25,577 nt of DNA from a virus. Made by a program: the position numbers and the translations under genes. The notes beneath the pieces were generated by a model. That model ran no database searches. It was not told the DNA's origin and saw only the letters and a program-made list of their open reading frames with translations. Numbering within the stretch: the first letter of the stretch is position 1; every line of letters starts with the position of its first letter. The stretch lies in the IMG/VR virus record IMGVR_UViG_3300032360_000046, positions 1 to 25,577 of that record. One strand, given 5' to 3'. This document shows, piece after piece, positions 14,337-22,925 of the stretch.

Positions 14337-16382
14337 ATGCATTTTTTCCAGGAAAATTTCAACGGAGAAAACATTACTCCTGGTGATAAAGGGGATTTTT
14401 TGCATGAGATGTGGGAGCACGGTCTTCATCTGATACCTTGTGGATCTCCCCTCGAAGTAGTCCCTAAATATTTTAGGACCCGACATCCTTTCGATACCGA
14501 TGACGTACTAAAAGCTAAGTGGGCAAAAACGCCCAGGGTTAAGTGGACCCATTATCAAAAGATCCAGCCGAGTGAAAAAGAAATTAACCAGTGGCATGAA
14601 CAATACCCTGATGCTAACTGGGCAGCAATCACCGGCATCAGCTTTGTTGTTGTCGATGCAGACAGCGATGAGGCCGTTACCTGGGTTGAGTCTGGTGCGA
14701 TCACGCGTACACCACTGGTTCAGAAAACTCCCCGCGGCGGCACACATTTCTTTTACGCAACAGGTCATGATGATATCCGTAACTCTGTGGGCAAGAACAA
14801 GATTGATGTGCGTGGAGATGGTGGCTACGTCATGGTTGTGCCCAGTGGGGGGTATAGCCTGAAGTGTGAGCCAAACTATGGTGTTAGCTCTGTCAGTGAC
14901 CTTCCCCTCCTGTCCAGTGTAGACCTGGAGCATATCCATGGCTTCAATGCTGTGGATCCCAACACCGGAGAAGTGGTCAGCATTCGCAACAAGCTCACCG
15001 AAGAACCCAAGGTTGAAGGCAACCGTAATGACACGCTGGCTAGACTGGTAGGCAAGTGGATCAAGGAAGGGTGGGGACTCAGAGAAGTTCTCATTAAATC
15101 CCAGGACTGGAATCAAACCTGCTTCCCGCCAATGGATATGGTAGAGGCTACCAGAACTGTGCTCTCTATTGCCCAAGGACACCTCAAGCGTAATCCAGAC
15201 ATGGCTGAGAGTGGTATCAATCAATGGCACACCTCGACATGGGAGACCGGGATCAGTGAGGATCTCAAAGAGATACAATCCCAGGAAGACCCTATTGATA
15301 CCCCTGAAAAACCAGACGTTAGCCCCCTTGGTTTAGTCCCTTTCAACGCGCCTCAATGGCAAGAGATGGAAGACGACACCATCGAGCAGTACTGGGGTGA
15401 TAAGTTTATTTTTGAAAACAGTCGAGTGCTCCTGCTTGGCAAGCCAAAGATCGGTAAGAGTAACTGGTTGGGTGGCTTCGCTTCAGGTGCAACTACCGGC
15501 ACTGATTTCATGGGCCGACCTTTTAATAAGCCACTCAAAGTAATGTGGCTCCAGGCTGAGATCATCGCAGAATTCTTGAAGCAGCGAGTCGAGATGTACT
15601 ACCAGAGATTCTCAACAAACGATGACCTCCGGCAGATCGGTTTCAGTAACCTTATTATATCTGGGCGGCTGCGTAAAAATTTAATGAAGGATGCAGACAT
15701 CCAGGCTATCAGTGATGAGATTGCTTTTCATCAGCCAGACATCCTGATGATTGACCCCATTATTAATTTCTTCGACGGTGAAGAGAACAGCAACACAGAA
15801 ATCAGGAAGCTCCTGGACCGGATCGATATGCTGATAGAGATGCACAAGTGCGCTGTCGTACTCGCACATCATACCGGTAAAGAGAGAGTCGATGACAGAT
15901 CATTCCTGTCAGCACGAGGCGGCAGCGTGTTCGCCGGTTGGTTCGACAGTGGCATCAAACTGATGGGCGAAAAGCCTAATATTAATTTGTTCTATGAAGC
16001 GCGTAATGCAGCAGACCCACAAGAACACCTCGCGTTCTTTGATTTCGATGACGGCCTGTGGCAGGTGAGTGACTTTACTAAGATCCAGAAGAAGAGCGAT
16101 GATGAAATCTCAGAAGATGAGGTTGGGATAGCCGGTATCGTTATGAAAGCAATGAAGGAAAACGAATTCTATAAGCGATCAGACCTGGAATTCCTAGCTA
16201 AGACCGCACTCAAGCAGCACAAAAAAGCGAATGGGAACCGCGCTTGTAAGAAAGCAGTTGGATATGTACAGAAACATTTGGGTCACATCGTGCATACCCA
16301 TGCGGAACCGGGCATGGCAATGTGGCATTATCTGGGTAGCAGTACAGCAGCGAAACCTTGGGAGGTACAGAATGAGAAATGA
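14337..16382 (+). CDS. Bifunctional primase-polymerase / RepA-like (AAA_25) helicase
   Basis: A 681-aa fusion. The N-terminal half is a prim-pol domain of the archaeo-eukaryotic primase type: VVDADSD (105-111, metal-binding Asp107/Asp109), PRGGTHFFY (132-140, His137) and DVRGDGGYVMVVPSGGY (157-173). Residues about 225-285 look like a helical linker. The C-terminal half is a RecA-fold helicase: GKPKIGKS (368-375, Walker A), ILMIDP (469-474, Walker B) and AHHTGK (510-515), as in RepA/AAA_25 hexameric helicases. After about 585 a small helical tail follows. It would unwind and prime phage DNA. No stand-alone primase or DNA polymerase is in the window. The start ATG follows an AGGA-type ribosome-binding site by 7-8 bases. 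Confidence 0.88.
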   Translation: MHFFQENFNGENITPGDKGDFLHEMWEHGLHLIPCGSPLEVVPKYFRTRHPFDTDDVLKAKWAKTPRVKWTHYQKIQPSEKEINQWHEQYPDANWAAITGISFVVVDADSDEAVTWVESGAITRTPLVQKTPRGGTHFFYATGHDDIRNSVGKNKIDVRGDGGYVMVVPSGGYSLKCEPNYGVSSVSDLPLLSSVDLEHIHGFNAVDPNTGEVVSIRNKLTEEPKVEGNRNDTLARLVGKWIKEGWGLREVLIKSQDWNQTCFPPMDMVEATRTVLSIAQGHLKRNPDMAESGINQWHTSTWETGISEDLKEIQSQEDPIDTPEKPDVSPLGLVPFNAPQWQEMEDDTIEQYWGDKFIFENSRVLLLGKPKIGKSNWLGGFASGATTGTDFMGRPFNKPLKVMWLQAEIIAEFLKQRVEMYYQRFSTNDDLRQIGFSNLIISGRLRKNLMKDADIQAISDEIAFHQPDILMIDPIINFFDGEENSNTEIRKLLDRIDMLIEMHKCAVVLAHHTGKERVDDRSFLSARGGSVFAGWFDSGIKLMGEKPNINLFYEARNAADPQEHLAFFDFDDGLWQVSDFTKIQKKSDDEISEDEVGIAGIVMKAMKENEFYKRSDLEFLAKTALKQHKKANGNRACKKAVGYVQKHLGHIVHTHAEPGMAMWHYLGSSTAAKPWEVQNEK

Positions 16383-16793: not shown

Positions 16794-17663
16794 ATGAACA
16801 ACCCATATTTAGTTGACGGTCCAACGTGCATCAGTTTCAGTGGTGGCAGAACATCTGCCTTCATGTTGTACAAGGTGCTCGAAGCTTATGACGGATACCT
16901 TCCTGAAGATTGTGTTGTTACCTTTGCGAACACAGGGAAAGAGATGCCGGAGACATTGGACTTTGTCCAGGCTTGCTCCGAGAACTGGGATGTCCCTATC
17001 GTCTGGCTTGAAAGAGAGATCAAAAGAAATACAGAAGAAAAGCCTATGTACCTGTACGAAACACGGGTTGTCGATCACGAAACCGCAGCAAGAAATGGTG
17101 AACCCTTTACTGCACTGATCAAAGCAAGAAGATATGCCCCGAACCCAGTCGCACGATTTTGTACCCAGGACCTGAAGATCAAAGCAATTGGCCAGTATCT
17201 ACGCGAAGAACGAGGATTCCCAAACCCCTATGTGTGCTTGATCGGCATCAGAGGTGATGAGCAACGCCGAGCAGCCAAGATGCATGGCACTGTCGCAGAA
17301 TTTCAGGAACGACACCTGCCGTTATGGCTTGACGGCATCACGAAAGAGGATATCTATGAGTTCTGGATCAATCAAAACTTCGATCTGCAACTACCCAACA
17401 ACAACGGTACAACAGACTGGGGCAACTGTGATCTGTGCTTCCTCAAAGGACTGGGTAAGAAGTTGAGCATCATCGAGGCAAGACCGGACCTCGCTGACTG
17501 GTGGAGTGAACAGGAGCAGACATTGAGTAAGGCGGTTGGCAAAGGCGCATCGTTCAGAAGTGATCAACCCACCTATGCAGATATGAAGGTCATAGCATCA
17601 GACCAGGGAAGCTTGTTCGGATTCGGAGATGATGAGTCAATACCCTGTTTCTGTGGAGATTAG
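16794..17663 (+). CDS. PP-loop ATP pyrophosphatase, PAPS-reductase/DndC-like, of the 7-deazaguanine cassette
   Basis: A 289-aa protein with the PP-loop SFSGGRTSA (14-22) that binds ATP and adenylates a substrate, followed by FANTGKE (44-50) and RFCTQDLK (121-128, Cys123), typical of the PAPS-reductase superfamily. Extra cysteines occur at NCDLC (Cys212, Cys215) and at the very C-terminus (Cys285, Cys287 in PCFCGD), possibly a metal site. The ECGxH catalytic motif of true PAPS reductases is absent, so sulfate assimilation is doubtful. It is the first gene of a tight operon with dpdA, queC and queE, so a step in making, activating or modifying the deazaguanine base is a fair guess. Family secure, reaction unknown. 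Confidence 0.8.
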   Translation: MNNPYLVDGPTCISFSGGRTSAFMLYKVLEAYDGYLPEDCVVTFANTGKEMPETLDFVQACSENWDVPIVWLEREIKRNTEEKPMYLYETRVVDHETAARNGEPFTALIKARRYAPNPVARFCTQDLKIKAIGQYLREERGFPNPYVCLIGIRGDEQRRAAKMHGTVAEFQERHLPLWLDGITKEDIYEFWINQNFDLQLPNNNGTTDWGNCDLCFLKGLGKKLSIIEARPDLADWWSEQEQTLSKAVGKGASFRSDQPTYADMKVIASDQGSLFGFGDDESIPCFCGD

Positions 17664-17666
17664 AAG

Positions 17667-18437
17667 ATGATTCACTACCATGGCATTCCCATATCCGGCG
17701 CAGAAAAAAACCAGATGTCATTGTCTGGGAAGCATGCGTTTGTGTCGTTTGCTGGGGCGCAGCATACCGCCTTGGTTGCTGAGATATGTCAGTCATTCGC
17801 CATTGATAACGGTGCTTTTTCTGCATGGAATTCAGGCAAGGATTTTGATCTTCATGGGTTTGCTACTTTCGTCGAGACATGGCATAGACACCCAGCTTTT
17901 GACTGGTACATCTTGCCCGATGTTATTGGTGGTAACCACCTTGAGAATGAGGAGTTGAGAAACACATGGCGCAAGAAAGTTTCAGACGACATCTGGAACA
18001 AGGGTGTGCCAGTGTGGCATCTACATGAACCAATAGAAGTGTTAAAGGACATGATCAATATGAGTAGGTTGTACAACCAATTCCCCAGGGTAGCATTCGG
18101 ATCAGGTGATTTTGCAGATGTCGGTACGCTTAAATGGTGGAACCGAATGGCTCAGGCAATGGAGGTGTGTTGCGATGACCAGGGTCGCCCGAAGGTTAAA
18201 TTGCATGGCTTAAAAATGCTTGATCCAACCGTGTTCTCGCACCTGCCACTGTCATCAGCAGACTCAACAAACGTAGCTCGAAGCTGTGGCCTTGATAAAG
18301 CATGGGGTGGCCCGTATGCACCCGCTACCGTTTACGGTAGAGCCTTAGTGATGATGGAACGGATCGAGATGCATGCGTCAGCAGCACGATGGTCAAACAC
18401 AAATGGTATTAATAGAAACCTGGAGTTATTCGGATGA
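17667..18437 (+). CDS. dpdA: DpdA-like DNA 7-deazaguanine transglycosylase (TGT-related)
   Basis: A 256-aa protein whose motifs fit the short phage DpdA branch of the tRNA-guanine transglycosylase fold: AIDNGAFSAW (45-54, Asp47), LPDVIGG (83-89, Asp85), WHLHEP (117-122), VAFGSGDFADVGT (142-154), KLHGLKMLDP (178-187) and SADSTNVAR (197-205). DpdA enzymes swap guanine in DNA for a 7-deazaguanine such as preQ0. A GGAG ribosome-binding site precedes the ATG. The gene ends in an ATGA overlap with queC, whose product would supply the base. This is recognition from motif layout and context, without a database search; catalytic residue identities are inferred from TGT. Confidence 0.8.
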   Translation: MIHYHGIPISGAEKNQMSLSGKHAFVSFAGAQHTALVAEICQSFAIDNGAFSAWNSGKDFDLHGFATFVETWHRHPAFDWYILPDVIGGNHLENEELRNTWRKKVSDDIWNKGVPVWHLHEPIEVLKDMINMSRLYNQFPRVAFGSGDFADVGTLKWWNRMAQAMEVCCDDQGRPKVKLHGLKMLDPTVFSHLPLSSADSTNVARSCGLDKAWGGPYAPATVYGRALVMMERIEMHASAARWSNTNGINRNLELFG

Positions 18438-19138
18438 GTGCAGATGCGTTGGTTGTTTTTTCAGGGGGACAGGATTCCACAACTTGCCTGTATTGGGCGA
18501 AAGAAAAATGGGATCATGTCGAGGCAATAACATTTAACTATGGGCAAAGGTCTTGTTGGTTGGAAGTTGAAGCAGCAAGTGACATAGCAGAGAATGCTTG
18601 TGTCACACATGAGATTGTCGATATTCCCGATTGCCTGGTCTCATCCAGTCCATTGACAAGCGACACCCAACTGGAAGCCTATGACTCATTCGAGGAGATG
18701 GAAGACACAATCGGGACACGCAGAGAGATGACGTTTGTGCCGATGCGCAATGCATTATTCTTGACACTCGCAGCGAATCGAGCAGAAGCTAAAGGCATCA
18801 GCAACATCGTAACCGGTGTCTGCCAGATGGATAATGCCAACTATGACGATTGCCGACATGTGTTTTTATATGCAACAGAACAGTATATCAATACAGCATT
18901 GGGACACGATCATCGAGGTACGCAATGGATCAGCATCCATGCACCCCTTTTGTACATGAGCAAAGCACAGAGCATCTACCTAGCACAATCAATACCAGGG
19001 GCGTTTGATGCATTAGGTAATTCTGTCAGCTGCTATGAAGGATTCTTCCCCCCTTGTGGAAAGTGTCACGCATGTGTATTAAGAGCAGAAGGATTTAAGC
19101 AAGCTGATGTACCCGATCCATTACTTCAGAATGTATAA
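18434..19138 (+). CDS. queC: QueC, 7-cyano-7-deazaguanine (preQ0) synthase
   Basis: A 234-aa protein with the PP-loop SGGQDST (10-16), the NYGQR motif (35-39), VPMRN (102-106), GVCQMDNANYDDCR (128-141) and the zinc site Cys200-x7-Cys208-x2-Cys211-x2-Cys214 ending CVLRAEGF, all as in QueC. QueC uses ATP and ammonia to turn 7-carboxy-7-deazaguanine into preQ0 through an amide intermediate. Length is normal for the family. The start overlaps the dpdA stop as ATGA, and queE begins inside its last codons. In phages, queC beside dpdA marks DNA modification rather than tRNA queuosine synthesis. Confidence 0.93.
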   Translation: MSADALVVFSGGQDSTTCLYWAKEKWDHVEAITFNYGQRSCWLEVEAASDIAENACVTHEIVDIPDCLVSSSPLTSDTQLEAYDSFEEMEDTIGTRREMTFVPMRNALFLTLAANRAEAKGISNIVTGVCQMDNANYDDCRHVFLYATEQYINTALGHDHRGTQWISIHAPLLYMSKAQSIYLAQSIPGAFDALGNSVSCYEGFFPPCGKCHACVLRAEGFKQADVPDPLLQNV

Positions 19139-19739
19139 GGTTAAGGAAATATTTTACACGCTCCAGGGCGAAGGGCATCACAGTGGTAGACCCGCTGTAT
19201 TCTGCCGGTTCACTGGGTGCAATCTCTGGTCAGGGCAAGAGCGACACCGGAGCAGTTCAATCTGTCAGTTCTGCGATACCGATTTCATTGGTGGTGACAC
19301 ATTCAGCAGGGAAGAATTGGTAAACAAAATCAACAGCACATGGAAGGGGCAAGGCAATAAGTTTGTCGTGTTCACAGGGGGTGAACCGGCATTACAATTA
19401 GATGAGGCCCTGGTGGAGGAGGTTAAAGATCATGGATTCACAACGGCAGTTGAAACAAACGGGACACGGCAACTCCCAGATAACCTCGACTGGATTACGG
19501 TCAGCCCGAAAGCGTATACTCAACTGGTCATCACCCAGGGGAATGAGGTCAAGGTGGTCTACCCCCAAATCGGTATCAACCCACATGACTTTCAATCCCT
19601 AAACTTTGAGCATTATTATATTCAACCGATGGACGGTTTCATGCGCTTAAATAATACAAATAAAGCAATAGAGTATTGCCTGGGAAACACGCACTGGCAA
19701 CTCAGTACTCAGGTACATAAACGTGTCGGGATCAGGTAG
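19131..19739 (+). CDS. queE: QueE, 7-carboxy-7-deazaguanine synthase (radical SAM)
   Basis: A 202-aa protein from the ATG at 19131. This start is preferred over the in-frame ATG at 19107 because MYKVKEIFYTLQGEG is the usual QueE N-terminus; either start overlaps queC. The radical-SAM cysteines are Cys30-x14-Cys45-x2-Cys48, the spacing that separates QueE from the common CxxxCxxC pattern, followed by FTGGEPALQ (81-89) and VETNGT. QueE makes 7-carboxy-7-deazaguanine from carboxytetrahydropterin. Its substrate is normally made by FolE and QueD, neither of which is in the window, so the host or another part of the phage genome must supply it. Confidence 0.92.
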   Translation: MYKVKEIFYTLQGEGHHSGRPAVFCRFTGCNLWSGQERHRSSSICQFCDTDFIGGDTFSREELVNKINSTWKGQGNKFVVFTGGEPALQLDEALVEEVKDHGFTTAVETNGTRQLPDNLDWITVSPKAYTQLVITQGNEVKVVYPQIGINPHDFQSLNFEHYYIQPMDGFMRLNNTNKAIEYCLGNTHWQLSTQVHKRVGIR

Positions 19740-19794
19740 GGGCAAAAACACTTAGGAGCGGAAGTTAATGGATTTTCTAGGTAAAATAACGTAA

Positions 19795-19810: not shown

Positions 19811-19846
19811 GTAGGGTCAATCGGGCTTTTTTCAAATTGACCCTAC
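19811..19846. repeat. 11-bp perfect inverted repeat built from two GGGTCA motifs
   Basis: GTAGGGTCAAT (19811-19821) pairs with ATTGACCCTAC (19836-19846) around a 14-base loop containing a T run. It could fold as a hairpin at the end of the queE transcript, but the T run is in the loop and not after the stem, so it is a poor intrinsic terminator. It is also the first two members of the GGGTCA repeat family. Confidence 0.55.
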
Positions 19847-19992
19847 CCCCTGTGGATAAGTCAGTAAGTGCTTGATTTGCAAGGGAAAGATAGGTAGGGT
19901 CACATGGGTCACACTGACCCTACGTTGACCCTACTGACCCTACCTCGTAAGTCATTGATTTATAAGGGTGGGTCATAGGGTCACATGGGTCA
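19814..19992. repeat. Ten GGGTCA/TGACCC iterons, candidate replication origin or packaging site
   Basis: GGGTCA occurs on the + strand at 19814, 19897, 19906, 19970, 19978 and 19987, and inverted as TGACCC at 19838, 19915, 19926 and 19935. Most are part of the longer GTAGGGTCAC or ATGGGTCAC. TAGGGTCACATGGGTCAC is repeated exactly at 19895-19912 and 19976-19993, inside a degenerate unit of about 80 bases (also sharing GTAAGT, TTGATTT and AAGGG) present twice. With the DnaA box and AT-rich palindrome alongside, an iteron-type origin is plausible. The position just before terS equally allows a small-terminase binding (cos/pac) region. Confidence 0.65.
19851..19859 (-). promoter_or_regulatory. 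Perfect DnaA box
   Basis: TGTGGATAA is the reverse complement of TTATCCACA, the consensus bacterial DnaA-binding sequence. It lies within the GGGTCA iteron block, which raises the chance that it is functional; a single 9-base match could still be coincidence. Confidence 0.5.
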
Positions 19993-19993
19993 C

Positions 19994-20032
19994 TCTCTAA
20001 AGAGAGGGAGAGATATATTAAAATATCTCCCT
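19994..20032. repeat. AT-rich palindromic stretch beside iterons, possible DNA unwinding element
   Basis: GAGATAT (20010-20016) pairs with ATATCTC (20023-20029) around ATTAAA, flanked by GGGA and CCCT that extend the dyad with a small bulge. CTCTCTAAAGAGAG lies immediately before. An AT-rich element next to iterons and a DnaA box is a common origin layout. No gene is seen in 20033-20099, which is a CT-rich stretch ending in the terS ribosome-binding site. Confidence 0.4.
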
Positions 20033-20099: not shown

Positions 20100-20825
20100 T
20101 TGAACAAGTTAAATGATGCAGCAGATTCACAAGACCTGGATCCTGTTTCCTTGCCTCCGAATAAGGATATCTTACGGAACCCTGAACAGTATAAACCGAA
20201 AAGGAAACAGATGAAGTTCACACCTAAACAGGAAAAGTTTATTCAGCTGTATGTGTATCACGATCTTACCAACGTCGAATGCGCCCATCGTGCAGGCTAT
20301 GCCTTCCCCGCACCTGAAGCTACTAAAATGCTTAACGACCCAAGGTATGTCCATATACAAAACAAAATCTTAGAACTCAGAGAACTCGAACAGAAAAAAT
20401 ATGAGATCACTTTTGAGAAGGTCGCGCGTGACTTGCATAAGATTCGAGATGCCGCTATGGAAAACGGAACCTATGGCGCAGCAGTGCAAGCAGAACTCGG
20501 ACGCGCAAAACTCGCTGGCCTCCTGGTAGATAAAAAAGAAATCAAACACGGCAGGATAGATCAGATGGATAGAGCAGAGGTCGAAGCCAGATTGCAAAAA
20601 TTGCTAGAAAAAAATGAACTTGCGCCTATAACACCTCCTCGGATTGAAAGCACAGAGATCCTCCAGGAGGAGGATGAGGTTGACCCTTTGGATGATGTCA
20701 CTTATGGGGAGGAAACGGCTGAGATCGAACGAGAGGGCCTTCAGATGGAGGATTATGAGGTCATCGAGGATGAGGATGAAGATGAGGGTGAAAATGAAAA
20801 TCCCCCTCAAAAAGAGGGGGAGTAG
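20100..20825 (+). CDS. terS: Terminase small subunit (DNA packaging)
   Basis: A 241-aa protein starting at the TTG at 20100, supported by AAGGAG eight bases upstream; an ATG at 20083 hits a stop after six codons. Residues about 39-90 (FTPKQEKFIQLYV...NVECAHRAGY...ATKMLNDPRYVHIQNKI) match the helix-turn-helix domain of Terminase_2 small subunits, and 104-142 (ITFEKVARDLHKIRDAA...AELGRAKLAGLL) the following helical part. The last 45 residues are extremely acidic (Glu/Asp repeats). It would bind the packaging start site and recruit the large subunit. The large subunit gene is not adjacent: the next genes are on the other strand. Confidence 0.85.
   Translation: MNKLNDAADSQDLDPVSLPPNKDILRNPEQYKPKRKQMKFTPKQEKFIQLYVYHDLTNVECAHRAGYAFPAPEATKMLNDPRYVHIQNKILELRELEQKKYEITFEKVARDLHKIRDAAMENGTYGAAVQAELGRAKLAGLLVDKKEIKHGRIDQMDRAEVEARLQKLLEKNELAPITPPRIESTEILQEEDEVDPLDDVTYGEETAEIEREGLQMEDYEVIEDEDEDEGENENPPQKEGE
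20802..20820 (-). terminator. Probable intrinsic terminator of the leftward accessory operon, inside the end of terS
   Basis: CCCCCTC (20802-20808) and GAGGGGG (20814-20820) form a perfect 7-bp GC stem with a 5-base loop. Read leftward the stem is followed by ATTTTCATTTT, a T-rich tail, so it suits transcripts of the gene ending at 20830. On the + strand there is no T run after the stem. The stem also lies within the terS coding sequence. Confidence 0.55.
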
Positions 20826-21802: not shown

Positions 21803-22044
21803 GACGGCCCCTCCATATCCAATTCTTCAAGTGCATCTTGGATCTTTTCATACCCAAATCTATCGTAAAGATCATCAATCAAAGCATATAGATCTGTGTA
21901 CTCTCTAGAAAATGGAGGATACTCCATGTAAATATTCCGCAGTTCCGCTTGCTCAAAAATCCAATTAGGAAACCCAATCTTTTTAAGCTCATCGTATTCT
22001 TCTTGGCCAATATCAAGACTTTGCAGGTGTATTGTATATCTCAT
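21799..22044 (-). CDS. 81-aa acidic protein, paralogue of its downstream neighbour
   Basis: The gene starts at an ATG overlapping the methyltransferase stop (ATGA) and ends overlapping the next ATG in the same way. The N-terminal part (MRYTIHLQSLDIGQEEYDEL) is unique; the second half (YTDLYALIDDLYDRFGYE) matches the 52-aa protein. Acidic and helical. Function unknown. Confidence 0.62.
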   Translation of the reverse strand: MRYTIHLQSLDIGQEEYDELKKIGFPNWIFEQAELRNIYMEYPPFSREYTDLYALIDDLYDRFGYEKIQDALEELDMEGPS

Positions 22045-22925
22045 CGCGCCTCCTCTCCGTAATGGTTAATGTGATTCGCGTAAATTATTTCTCCGATTCG
22101 CTGCACAAGTTGAGGGACGACTGCGTTTCCAAGGGATCTAATTCTGTCCACCCGATTGGGAATCCCATCAACCACTCTGTCCACGCAGGGTTCAACTTGC
22201 CAGTTGGTCGGTGTGGGTTCTTGACCTTCGCACAAAGGTACGAGCGATTGTGCATGTGCGTATGACTCTTGCTCCCCACCGGTCCACAGTCCTTGTACTC
22301 GCTCGCCCGTGGTGTCGGCCATAACCGTATTGGATTGTCCGAAAGACTGTCCTTCACTGCCGATCCAATGTTCCACCCGTGATCTCCTGTCTTGTGAGAT
22401 GGTGCAATCTCCTCGCCTCCAGTCATTTTCGTCGGCGTGGGCCACAATCCAGCATCTGTCTCTGCGATGTCTCGCTTCGACGGCACAAGCCGGTATAACA
22501 AACGATTGGACTTGGTAACCTTCGTTTTCCAGGTCAGCGCACACATCGTCGAGTGCCATGCCGATGAACCCAGAAACATTCTCACCAATGACCCAAGTTG
22601 GACACGACTCTTGGATGATTCGAAACATTTCAGACCAGAGATCACGGTCATCTTTATTTCCAAGTTGTCTGCCTGCCTGTGAGTAGGGTTGGCAAGGGAA
22701 TCCTCCGCAAATAACATCAACTGATTTATATTGGCTTCCATCTAAACTCCTTATGTCTTCATGAATAGGTATGTCAGGCCAATGCTTGGCCAAGATCTGT
22801 CTACAGAATGCGTCCTTCTCACACATGGCAATGGTCTCCATCCCTGCCCACTCAAGGCCAAGAGAAAACCCACCAATACCAGAAAAAAGATCAAGAACTT
22901 TCATCGTCGGTCCCCATCCATTCAT
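22041..22925 (-). CDS. C5-cytosine DNA methyltransferase
   Basis: A 294-aa protein with the ordered C5-methylase motifs: LDLFSGIGG (11-19, motif I, SAM binding), GGFPCQPYSQAG (74-85, motif IV, catalytic Cys78), ENV (115-117, motif VI), RHRRDR (152-157, motif VIII) and RIRSLGNAVVPQ (261-272, motif IX). The target-recognition region between VIII and IX is short (about 100 residues). The start at 22925 has AGAGG five bases upstream; the ATG at 22904 is an alternative closer to motif I. It would methylate phage DNA, plausibly against host restriction. No cognate restriction enzyme is seen. A second long frame is nested in the gene. Confidence 0.92.
   Translation of the reverse strand: MNGWGPTMKVLDLFSGIGGFSLGLEWAGMETIAMCEKDAFCRQILAKHWPDIPIHEDIRSLDGSQYKSVDVICGGFPCQPYSQAGRQLGNKDDRDLWSEMFRIIQESCPTWVIGENVSGFIGMALDDVCADLENEGYQVQSFVIPACAVEARHRRDRCWIVAHADENDWRRGDCTISQDRRSRVEHWIGSEGQSFGQSNTVMADTTGERVQGLWTGGEQESYAHAQSLVPLCEGQEPTPTNWQVEPCVDRVVDGIPNRVDRIRSLGNAVVPQLVQRIGEIIYANHINHYGEEAR
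22085..22741 (-). CDS. Nested protein in an alternative frame of the methyltransferase gene
   Basis: A 218-aa reading frame on the same strand, shifted by one base, almost wholly inside the methyltransferase gene (from its codon 62). It has its own ribosome-binding site, AAGGAG (22752-22747), five bases from the ATG at 22741. The product has motifs I recall from phage proteins linked to C5 methylases: LTWKTKVTKSNRLLYRLVPS, two LWPTP segments (about 10 residues each) and a C-terminal LNPAWTEWLMGFPIGWTEL. The protein-like composition and motif repeats suggest real coding. A shadow effect of the conserved methylase frame cannot be excluded without comparative data. Confidence 0.62.
   Translation of the reverse strand: MEANINQLMLFAEDSLANPTHRQADNLEIKMTVISGLKCFESSKSRVQLGSLVRMFLGSSAWHSTMCALTWKTKVTKSNRLLYRLVPSKRDIAETDAGLWPTPTKMTGGEEIAPSHKTGDHGWNIGSAVKDSLSDNPIRLWPTPRASEYKDCGPVGSKSHTHMHNRSYLCAKVKNPHRPTGKLNPAWTEWLMGFPIGWTELDPLETQSSLNLCSESEK

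Follow-up and report, generated by a model that had tools for sequence, protein, structure and literature searches.

Background

Iteron-type replication origins combine a winged-helix initiator bound to repeats with DnaA boxes, sometimes IHF, and an unwinding element, as outlined in the sections of PMC4980987 drawn on here. SaPI/PICI elements sometimes also carry terS (excerpts of PMC6092414). In the V. cholerae PLE/ICP1 system, the nuclease Odn of ICP1 cuts origins via a RepA-like domain, and this origin-directed nuclease appears to drive the swapping of origin and initiator, according to the relevant portion of PMC8263062. Among the titles and opening lines of abstracts covered in the non-subscription literature, no published code linking an iteron word to a recognition helix was found in phages.

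The locus described here lies in IMG/VR virus record IMGVR_UViG_3300032360_000046, classed as linear; the window, i.e., the whole stretch of DNA analyzed, comprises its 25,577 bases. The source group is uncultured marine tailed phages. Measured against an iteron-type theta origin, the locus contains a repeat cluster, a cognate reader indicated by co-variation, and a DnaA box within the window.

Results and discussion

Iteron array and its gene neighborhood

Two genes of the window are central to the analysis:

14337–16382, + strand, PrimPol / PriCT_1 / AAA_25 replication protein, the proposed initiator (Pfam; match to the prim-pol domain of pRN1 ORF904, E 0.004)
20100–20825, + strand, terS (small terminase), ruled out as the protein that reads the word

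The prim-pol gene is followed by a PAPS-reductase-like gene, an unnamed gene (17667–18437), QueC, QueE, a gene-free block, and terS. The four genes between prim-pol and the array occupy 16794–19739 and include functions of 7-deazaguanine synthesis (QueC, QueE); in many relatives this slot holds other genes. Modification of the phage DNA with 7-deazaguanine is possible and may affect the G-rich iterons. A C5-cytosine methyltransferase gene is located at 22041–22925, and some relatives (e.g., L083) have a similar gene beside prim-pol. The block extends from the QueE stop at 19739 to the TTG start of terS at 20100 and is gene-free, as the sequence-only reading had described it; the gap of 107 bases between the repeats and terS is likewise correct, provided that the TTG at 20100 is the start. 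GC skew tracks gene direction in the window, and in five long contigs the array does not coincide with a turn of the skew. The block contains the following repeats:

19814–19992, unstranded, iteron array, ten GGGTCA copies in three clusters, (+ -), (+ + - - -), and (+ + +)
19814–19819, + strand, iteron 1, exact GGGTCA hexamer
19838–19843, - strand, iteron 2, exact hexamer, inverted partner of iteron 1
19897–19902, + strand, iteron 3, exact GGGTCA hexamer
19906–19911, + strand, iteron 4, exact GGGTCA hexamer
19915–19920, - strand, iteron 5, exact hexamer
19926–19931, - strand, iteron 6, exact hexamer
19935–19940, - strand, iteron 7, exact hexamer
19970–19975, + strand, iteron 8, exact GGGTCA hexamer
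19978–19983, + strand, iteron 9, exact GGGTCA hexamer
19987–19992, + strand, iteron 10, exact GGGTCA hexamer

The ten GGGTCA/TGACCC copies noticed earlier, six direct and four inverted, were all recovered at 19814–19992. The 18-bp direct repeat reported with them (TAGGGTCACATGGGTCAC, at 19895 and 19976, i.e., 81 bp apart) is exact, and over 21 bp the two copies match at 20 of 21 positions. Within the clusters, the 6-bp cores follow each other in steps of 7–11 bp and in both orientations. The claim that the hexamer is denser than expected also holds: GGGTCA occurs 23 times in the whole window versus 10.5 times (sd 3.3) in dinucleotide shuffles, none of 100 shuffles reaches 23, and the 179-base block holds ten copies where the shuffle rate gives about 0.07.

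Six words in conserved positions

Relatives were collected by a TerS scan, which yielded 39 loci, and by prim-pol scans, which yielded further sets. Their block follows the prim-pol gene, the end of which lies about 0.4–3.4 kb from the array, and precedes terS. The comparisons below rely on 72 genotypes, each a different combination of prim-pol C-terminus and array in the loci gathered at that stage; at least three forward and two reverse copies were required, and loci below this threshold were dropped. For L242 and L245, the word was assigned as GGGTCA by hand from copy counts, overriding the automatic call of the filter.

Array spacing is nearly constant in the 72 genotypes, with recurrent offsets of about 0, 23–25, 71–92, 98–121, and 153–173. 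The hexamer itself differs among phages and is uniform inside most of them: GGGTCA occurs in 33 genotypes, GGTGCA in 15, GGGGCA in 13, GGTACA in 7, GGTATG in 3, and GGTATA in 1. Less pure arrays, which mix related words, comprise six of the seven GGTACA arrays as well as the GGTATG and GGTATA arrays. Between L256 and L257, the flanks are almost identical, and GGGGCA versus GGGTCA amounts to a one-base switch at every aligned copy of the word. The copies of an array change their word in concert while position and spacing persist. The hexamer is probably a specificity word, in whose slots relatives place other words.

A bacterial and archaeal genome scan returned a single match, the near relative L292; its contig is assigned to a Sphingobacteriales MAG and is possibly a mis-binned phage. 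Isolated phages gave no DNA match to the array and no match to the prim-pol C-terminal domain; prim-pol itself matched 45 phage records and 7 plasmid records, each only in part. In four distant isolates that carry a TerS relative, a search run without a positive control gave no match to the prim-pol alignment, and three of the four contain no comparable repeat cluster within 1.2 kb before terS. The cultured pelagiphage HTVC023P (L309, 5763–5911) has seven TAGGAA copies in both orientations directly before terS. This phage is distant, has no match to the prim-pol of the window, and differs in its repeat cluster, so the place beside terS may have a meaning of its own. In phage 023Pt_psg01 (L310, 7110–7324), seven GTGCCA copies are located after terS, in a stretch without annotated genes.

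Elements around the iterons

Several further elements accompany the iterons:

19751–19780, + strand, conserved left-boundary element CTTAGGAGCGGAAGTTAATGGATTTTCTAG, about 30 bp, left of the array
19851–19859, - strand, perfect DnaA box TTATCCACA, the sole perfect box in the window
19865–19877, - strand, IHF-type site AATCAAGCACTTA, a sequence motif that fits WATCAANNNNTTR
19948–19960, - strand, IHF-type site AATCAATGACTTA, a sequence motif
19993–20006, unstranded, palindrome CTCTCTAAAGAGAG, directly 3' of iteron 10
20006–20031, unstranded, AT-rich stem-loop GGGAGAGATATATTAAAATATCTCCC, candidate unwinding element from its sequence

Of the 72 array genotypes, 46 have a perfect DnaA box and 26 lack one. 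The array spacers were scored with the IHF consensus WATCAANNNNTTR; at least one match occurs in each of the 72 genotypes, compared with 0.017 per array in shuffles. The arms of the palindrome directly 3' of iteron 10 co-vary in relatives (TTCTAAAGAA, CCCTAAAGGG). In the AT-rich palindrome, pairing is kept while the sequence differs between clades, and the element scores as terminator-like on the - strand. In L008, the segment from this palindrome to the terS leader is duplicated in tandem 3' of the array.

The left-boundary element takes the form CTTA..GAAAGTTAAAGT...TTC.AG in relatives and is kept across deep clades. Used as a search pattern it recovers many arrays. The spacer motif, used in the same way, recovered mostly array-less loci. 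Of the 61 loci newly fetched by the left-boundary scan, 51 have an array. Of these, 49 also have terS, and in the remaining two the contig stops no more than 700 nt past the left-boundary motif, so none of the 51 looks like a satellite that carries the array.

Co-variation of the word with a prim-pol helix

If a protein reads the hexamer, that protein is expected to switch along with the word. The prim-pol contains the motif G-a-b-x-x-c, in which a, b, and c correspond to residues 634, 635, and 638 of the window protein. Met638 is found with GGTGCA in 15 of 16 genotypes (GGGGCA in the other), and Arg638 with GGGGCA in all 12. Gln638 accompanies GGGTCA in 32 of 35 genotypes; in the other three it stands behind Val-Asn and the word is GGTATG. 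Lys638 corresponds to GGTACA when it stands behind Val-Gln (n=7) and to GGTATA behind Leu-Asn (n=1), while the window itself combines Lys638 with GGGTCA (n=1).

The column tests use 63, 66 (prim-pol), or 67 (TerS) of the 72 genotypes. Across the whole prim-pol, in the 63 full-length genotypes covered by the mutual-information test, normalized mutual information with the word reaches 0.88 at residue 638 and 0.73 at residue 634, followed by 0.42 for the next column. Residue 638 scores 0.915 versus 0.40 for the next best when 3145 columns and 20 neighboring gene families are considered. All 95 close pairs whose words differ also differ at this residue, and 91.5% of the 340 distant pairs that share a word have the residue in common.

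The association is repeated along the phylogeny. A tree of 66 genotypes, reconstructed from prim-pol residues 1–590 so that the winged-helix domain is excluded, shows 22 changes of the word, 21 of residue 638, and 23 of their joint state. Phylogenetically independent pairs agree in 10 of 10 cases for GGTGCA/Met, 8 of 8 for GGGGCA/Arg, and 12 of 13 for GGGTCA/Gln; L011, too short for the tree and the close-pair tests, is counted as an exception. The prim-pols of L220 and L227, whose words differ, are distinguished by 12 of 670 residues, 11 of them inside the winged helix, an apparent domain swap by recombination. In L256 and L257, four domain residues differ, including R638Q, alongside the one-base switch of the word. 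The C-terminal helix of the prim-pol thus very probably reads the word, as far as co-variation can identify a reader. Since switches accompany changes at residues 634, 635, and 638, origin and initiator appear to evolve as a matched pair.

Predicted winged helix of the prim-pol

The co-varying residues fall within a domain at the C-terminus of the protein:

16098–16334, + strand, winged-helix domain, residues 588–666, the proposed iteron-binding domain (AlphaFold2 prediction)
16236–16277, + strand, recognition helix, residues 634–647, of which 634, 635, and 638 co-vary with the word (model and co-variation)

The AlphaFold2 model of the full protein, based on 42 sequences, is weak overall (mean pLDDT 66, pTM 0.37) and better in the C-terminal domain; residues 578–681 modeled alone reach pLDDT 88 and pTM 0.77. 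The order of elements in the predicted domain is helix, short strand, helix, helix (634–647), and two strands. The domain is predicted to adopt a winged-helix fold, with residues 634, 635, and 638 opening the third (recognition) helix. Its best structural neighbors are winged helices of many families, among them T138 eWH (Z 8.1), PerR (Z 7.4), Cdt1, Zur, and Z-alpha; for Z below about 8, the alignment tool itself advises caution. As Foldseek returned no hit with E < 0.001 for the domain and VIA-align Z was at most 8.1, only the arrangement of the fold is claimed here and the domain is left unassigned to a family. A PDB sequence search with the C-terminal domain returned nothing significant. 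Met or Val going with T, Arg with G, and Asn with an A-T pair would fit ordinary recognition chemistry.

Prediction of the word in new contigs

The rule leading from residue to word was fixed before new contigs were fetched. It was correct in 24 of 26 of them (13/14 in the first batch and 11/12 in the second), several of which are near-copies of each other or of earlier contigs, so these are not 26 independent trials. Of the 21 new loci in the first batch, 20 had the helix. An array accompanied it in 14; in the other six the contig ended or no array was in reach. The second batch comprises the 12 previously unlisted contigs with both helix and array among the 61 loci of the left-boundary scan (L385, L386, L388, L390, L391, L392, L407, L409, L432, L435, L441, and L444).

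Three contigs break the rule. L345 combines Asn634 and Arg638 with GGGTCA, which suggests that residue 634 can override residue 638. L385 has Arg638 with GGTGCA, and L011 (2159–2335), from the loci gathered before the prediction, has Met638 with GGGGCA; these reciprocal Met/Arg mismatches could be recombinants between states or assembly chimeras. All three contigs might stem from chimeric assembly or represent recombinants in transition.

A putative origin and alternative readings

Taken together, the block is probably an iteron-type replication origin recognized by the PrimPol-helicase of the phage. The prim-pol would bind the GGGTCA iterons via the recognition helix in its last ~80 residues. 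Host DnaA, with one box in the window's phage, and a DNA-bending protein like IHF, with two sites, might assist where such sites exist. The prim-pol might then open the adjoining AT-rich palindrome, load itself as helicase-primase, and begin unwinding and priming. Binding, the use of DnaA and IHF, melting, and origin activity are steps that we infer. The sequence-only reading had proposed either a phage origin, served by an initiator such as the prim-pol/helicase, or a recognition site of the small terminase. The first option is well supported, because the word changes along with the recognition helix of the prim-pol and because a DnaA box, IHF-type sites, and the AT-rich palindrome are situated within or next to the array; the array itself can with good reason be taken as a likely replication origin on these sequence features. 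The second is disfavored, as no column of TerS follows the word more closely than background does.

Co-variation tells which protein reads the array and says nothing about the purpose, and the array sits in an upstream region. It might be an operator, through which the prim-pol winged helix controls transcription of terS or a neighbor, with the origin elsewhere; winged helices are often regulators, and iteron initiators often repress transcription too. Such a role is improbable: the protein that reads the array is a primase-helicase, an operator needs far less than some ten sites in 180 bp combined with a DnaA box, IHF-type sites, and a palindrome, and no sigma-70 promoter match was found within the array.

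A packaging start (pac or cosB-like), with TerS and IHF binding repeats beside terS, is more doubtful still. The array lies 107 bases before terS, this adjacency is kept in relatives, and HTVC023P has a different repeat cluster at the same place; lambda cosB joins terminase sites with IHF. The proteins, however, point away from TerS: its best column reaches 0.42 in mutual information and 0.31 in the pair contrast, and 41 TerS pairs with at least 97% identity differ in word. Words differ even where TerS is identical over 181 aa (L057/L065) or 139 aa (L292/L014). Contig ends are not concentrated at the array, either: of 145 loci, two end in the 450 nt that follow the left-boundary motif, and one starts in the 300 nt that precede it. 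TerS was rejected as reader of the word, since identical stretches of it stand beside different words and none of its columns tracks the word.

Linkage without binding would require that array and initiator 3' end recombine as one cassette, the association being due to hitch-hiking. Pairs of the L220/L227 type resemble segment swaps, and the array is only ~0.4–3.4 kb from the end of the prim-pol gene. This is hardly credible, because the tested neighboring gene families do not follow the word and the same residues recur across deep clades: Met/GGTGCA and Arg/GGGGCA each appear on two distant backbones, as does Val-Gln with GGTACA on two backbones. In L256/L257, moreover, R638Q is among only four domain changes that go with the one-base switch. 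Equally implausible is the view that the repeats act as RNA or single-strand hairpins whose stems are merely preserved by co-changing words, and it was rejected as the main cause: forward and reverse copies can pair and pairing survives word changes, yet the last three forward copies switch as well, although almost every spacing pattern leaves them without a reverse copy close by, the word tracks a protein recognition helix, and the window has no Rfam match.

Possible causes and significance of the word switches

If the array is an origin read by the prim-pol, the question arises why its word changes. Somewhat speculatively, the word might act as a replication password under diversifying selection, with at least six words and matching helix changes defining replication-compatibility groups. 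Possible pressures, by analogy, are an origin-directed nuclease as in PLE/ICP1 or incompatibility between co-infecting phages. If the password reading is true, such groups would bar co-infecting relatives, satellites, and origin-directed nucleases from using or attacking the origins of these phages, and the phages would constitute a natural experiment on a protein-DNA recognition code, with about 22 word changes on one tree. The putative reading residues are narrowed to three positions of one helix. Two questions become testable: by what route some ten sites and the initiator of a replicon can be changed jointly while replication is kept, and what selects for the change. The approach also offers a sequence-only route to origins and to the prediction of cross-replication for phages in viral metagenomes.

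Comparison with known systems

The helicase of P4 alpha belongs to SF3. As in proteins of the P4 alpha type, a C-terminal winged helix is predicted for the window protein; in place of Toprim and SF3, Pfam detects Prim-Pol, PriCT_1, and AAA_25. In the parts of PMC4234260 relevant here, P4 alpha is a comparable one-polypeptide initiator acting at origin repeats and has a bacterial-type (Toprim) primase. Its primase and ATPase both differ from the PrimPol and AAA_25 of the window protein. A natural multi-word code for P4 was not found in the literature searched. The same source material (PMC4234260) gives pRN1 ORF904 a C-terminal winged helix, which adds to the likeness of the PrimPol domain by sequence (E 0.004); unlike the window protein, ORF904 has an SF3 helicase and acts at a stem-loop origin without iterons. 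Of the pRN1-type features, the window has the PrimPol domain and lacks the SF3 helicase and the iteron-free stem-loop origin.

The plasmid origins of R6K, RK2, pSC101, and P1 share a winged-helix initiator on repeats, DnaA boxes, in some cases IHF, and an unwinding element (PMC4980987, in the sections used). Plasmid iterons are typically 17–22 bp long, whereas those of the window have a 6-bp core, 7–11 bp steps, and both orientations; in contrast to plasmid iteron initiators, that of the window combines primase and ATPase/helicase domains in one protein.

V. cholerae PLE resembles the phage group in that its origin and initiator (RepA/ori) co-vary and get swapped (PMC8263062, in the portion consulted). 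It differs in its RepA_N protein, for which the available part of PMC7145576 gives no predicted primase or helicase activity, and in its ~30-bp iterons. PLE has few variants, whereas the window's phage group has six words and 22 changes. SaPI/PICI pri-rep-ori modules are similar in the placement of the origin 3' of the replication gene and in the combination of iterons with an AT-rich region, although in PICI two iteron sets flank that region (PMC6092414, as excerpted). In the window, all iterons are on one side and no flanking sets are found.

Geminiviruses differ as single-stranded DNA plant viruses with a rolling-circle Rep, and the fold of Rep differs from that of the window's initiator. 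They nevertheless offer a close parallel in their iterons of 5–6 bases, which vary among close relatives and serve as recognition sites of the cognate Rep (PMC12548392, in the passages considered). Iteron origins with matched initiators are already known; this one phage group stands out by its many parallel word switches on near-identical backgrounds.
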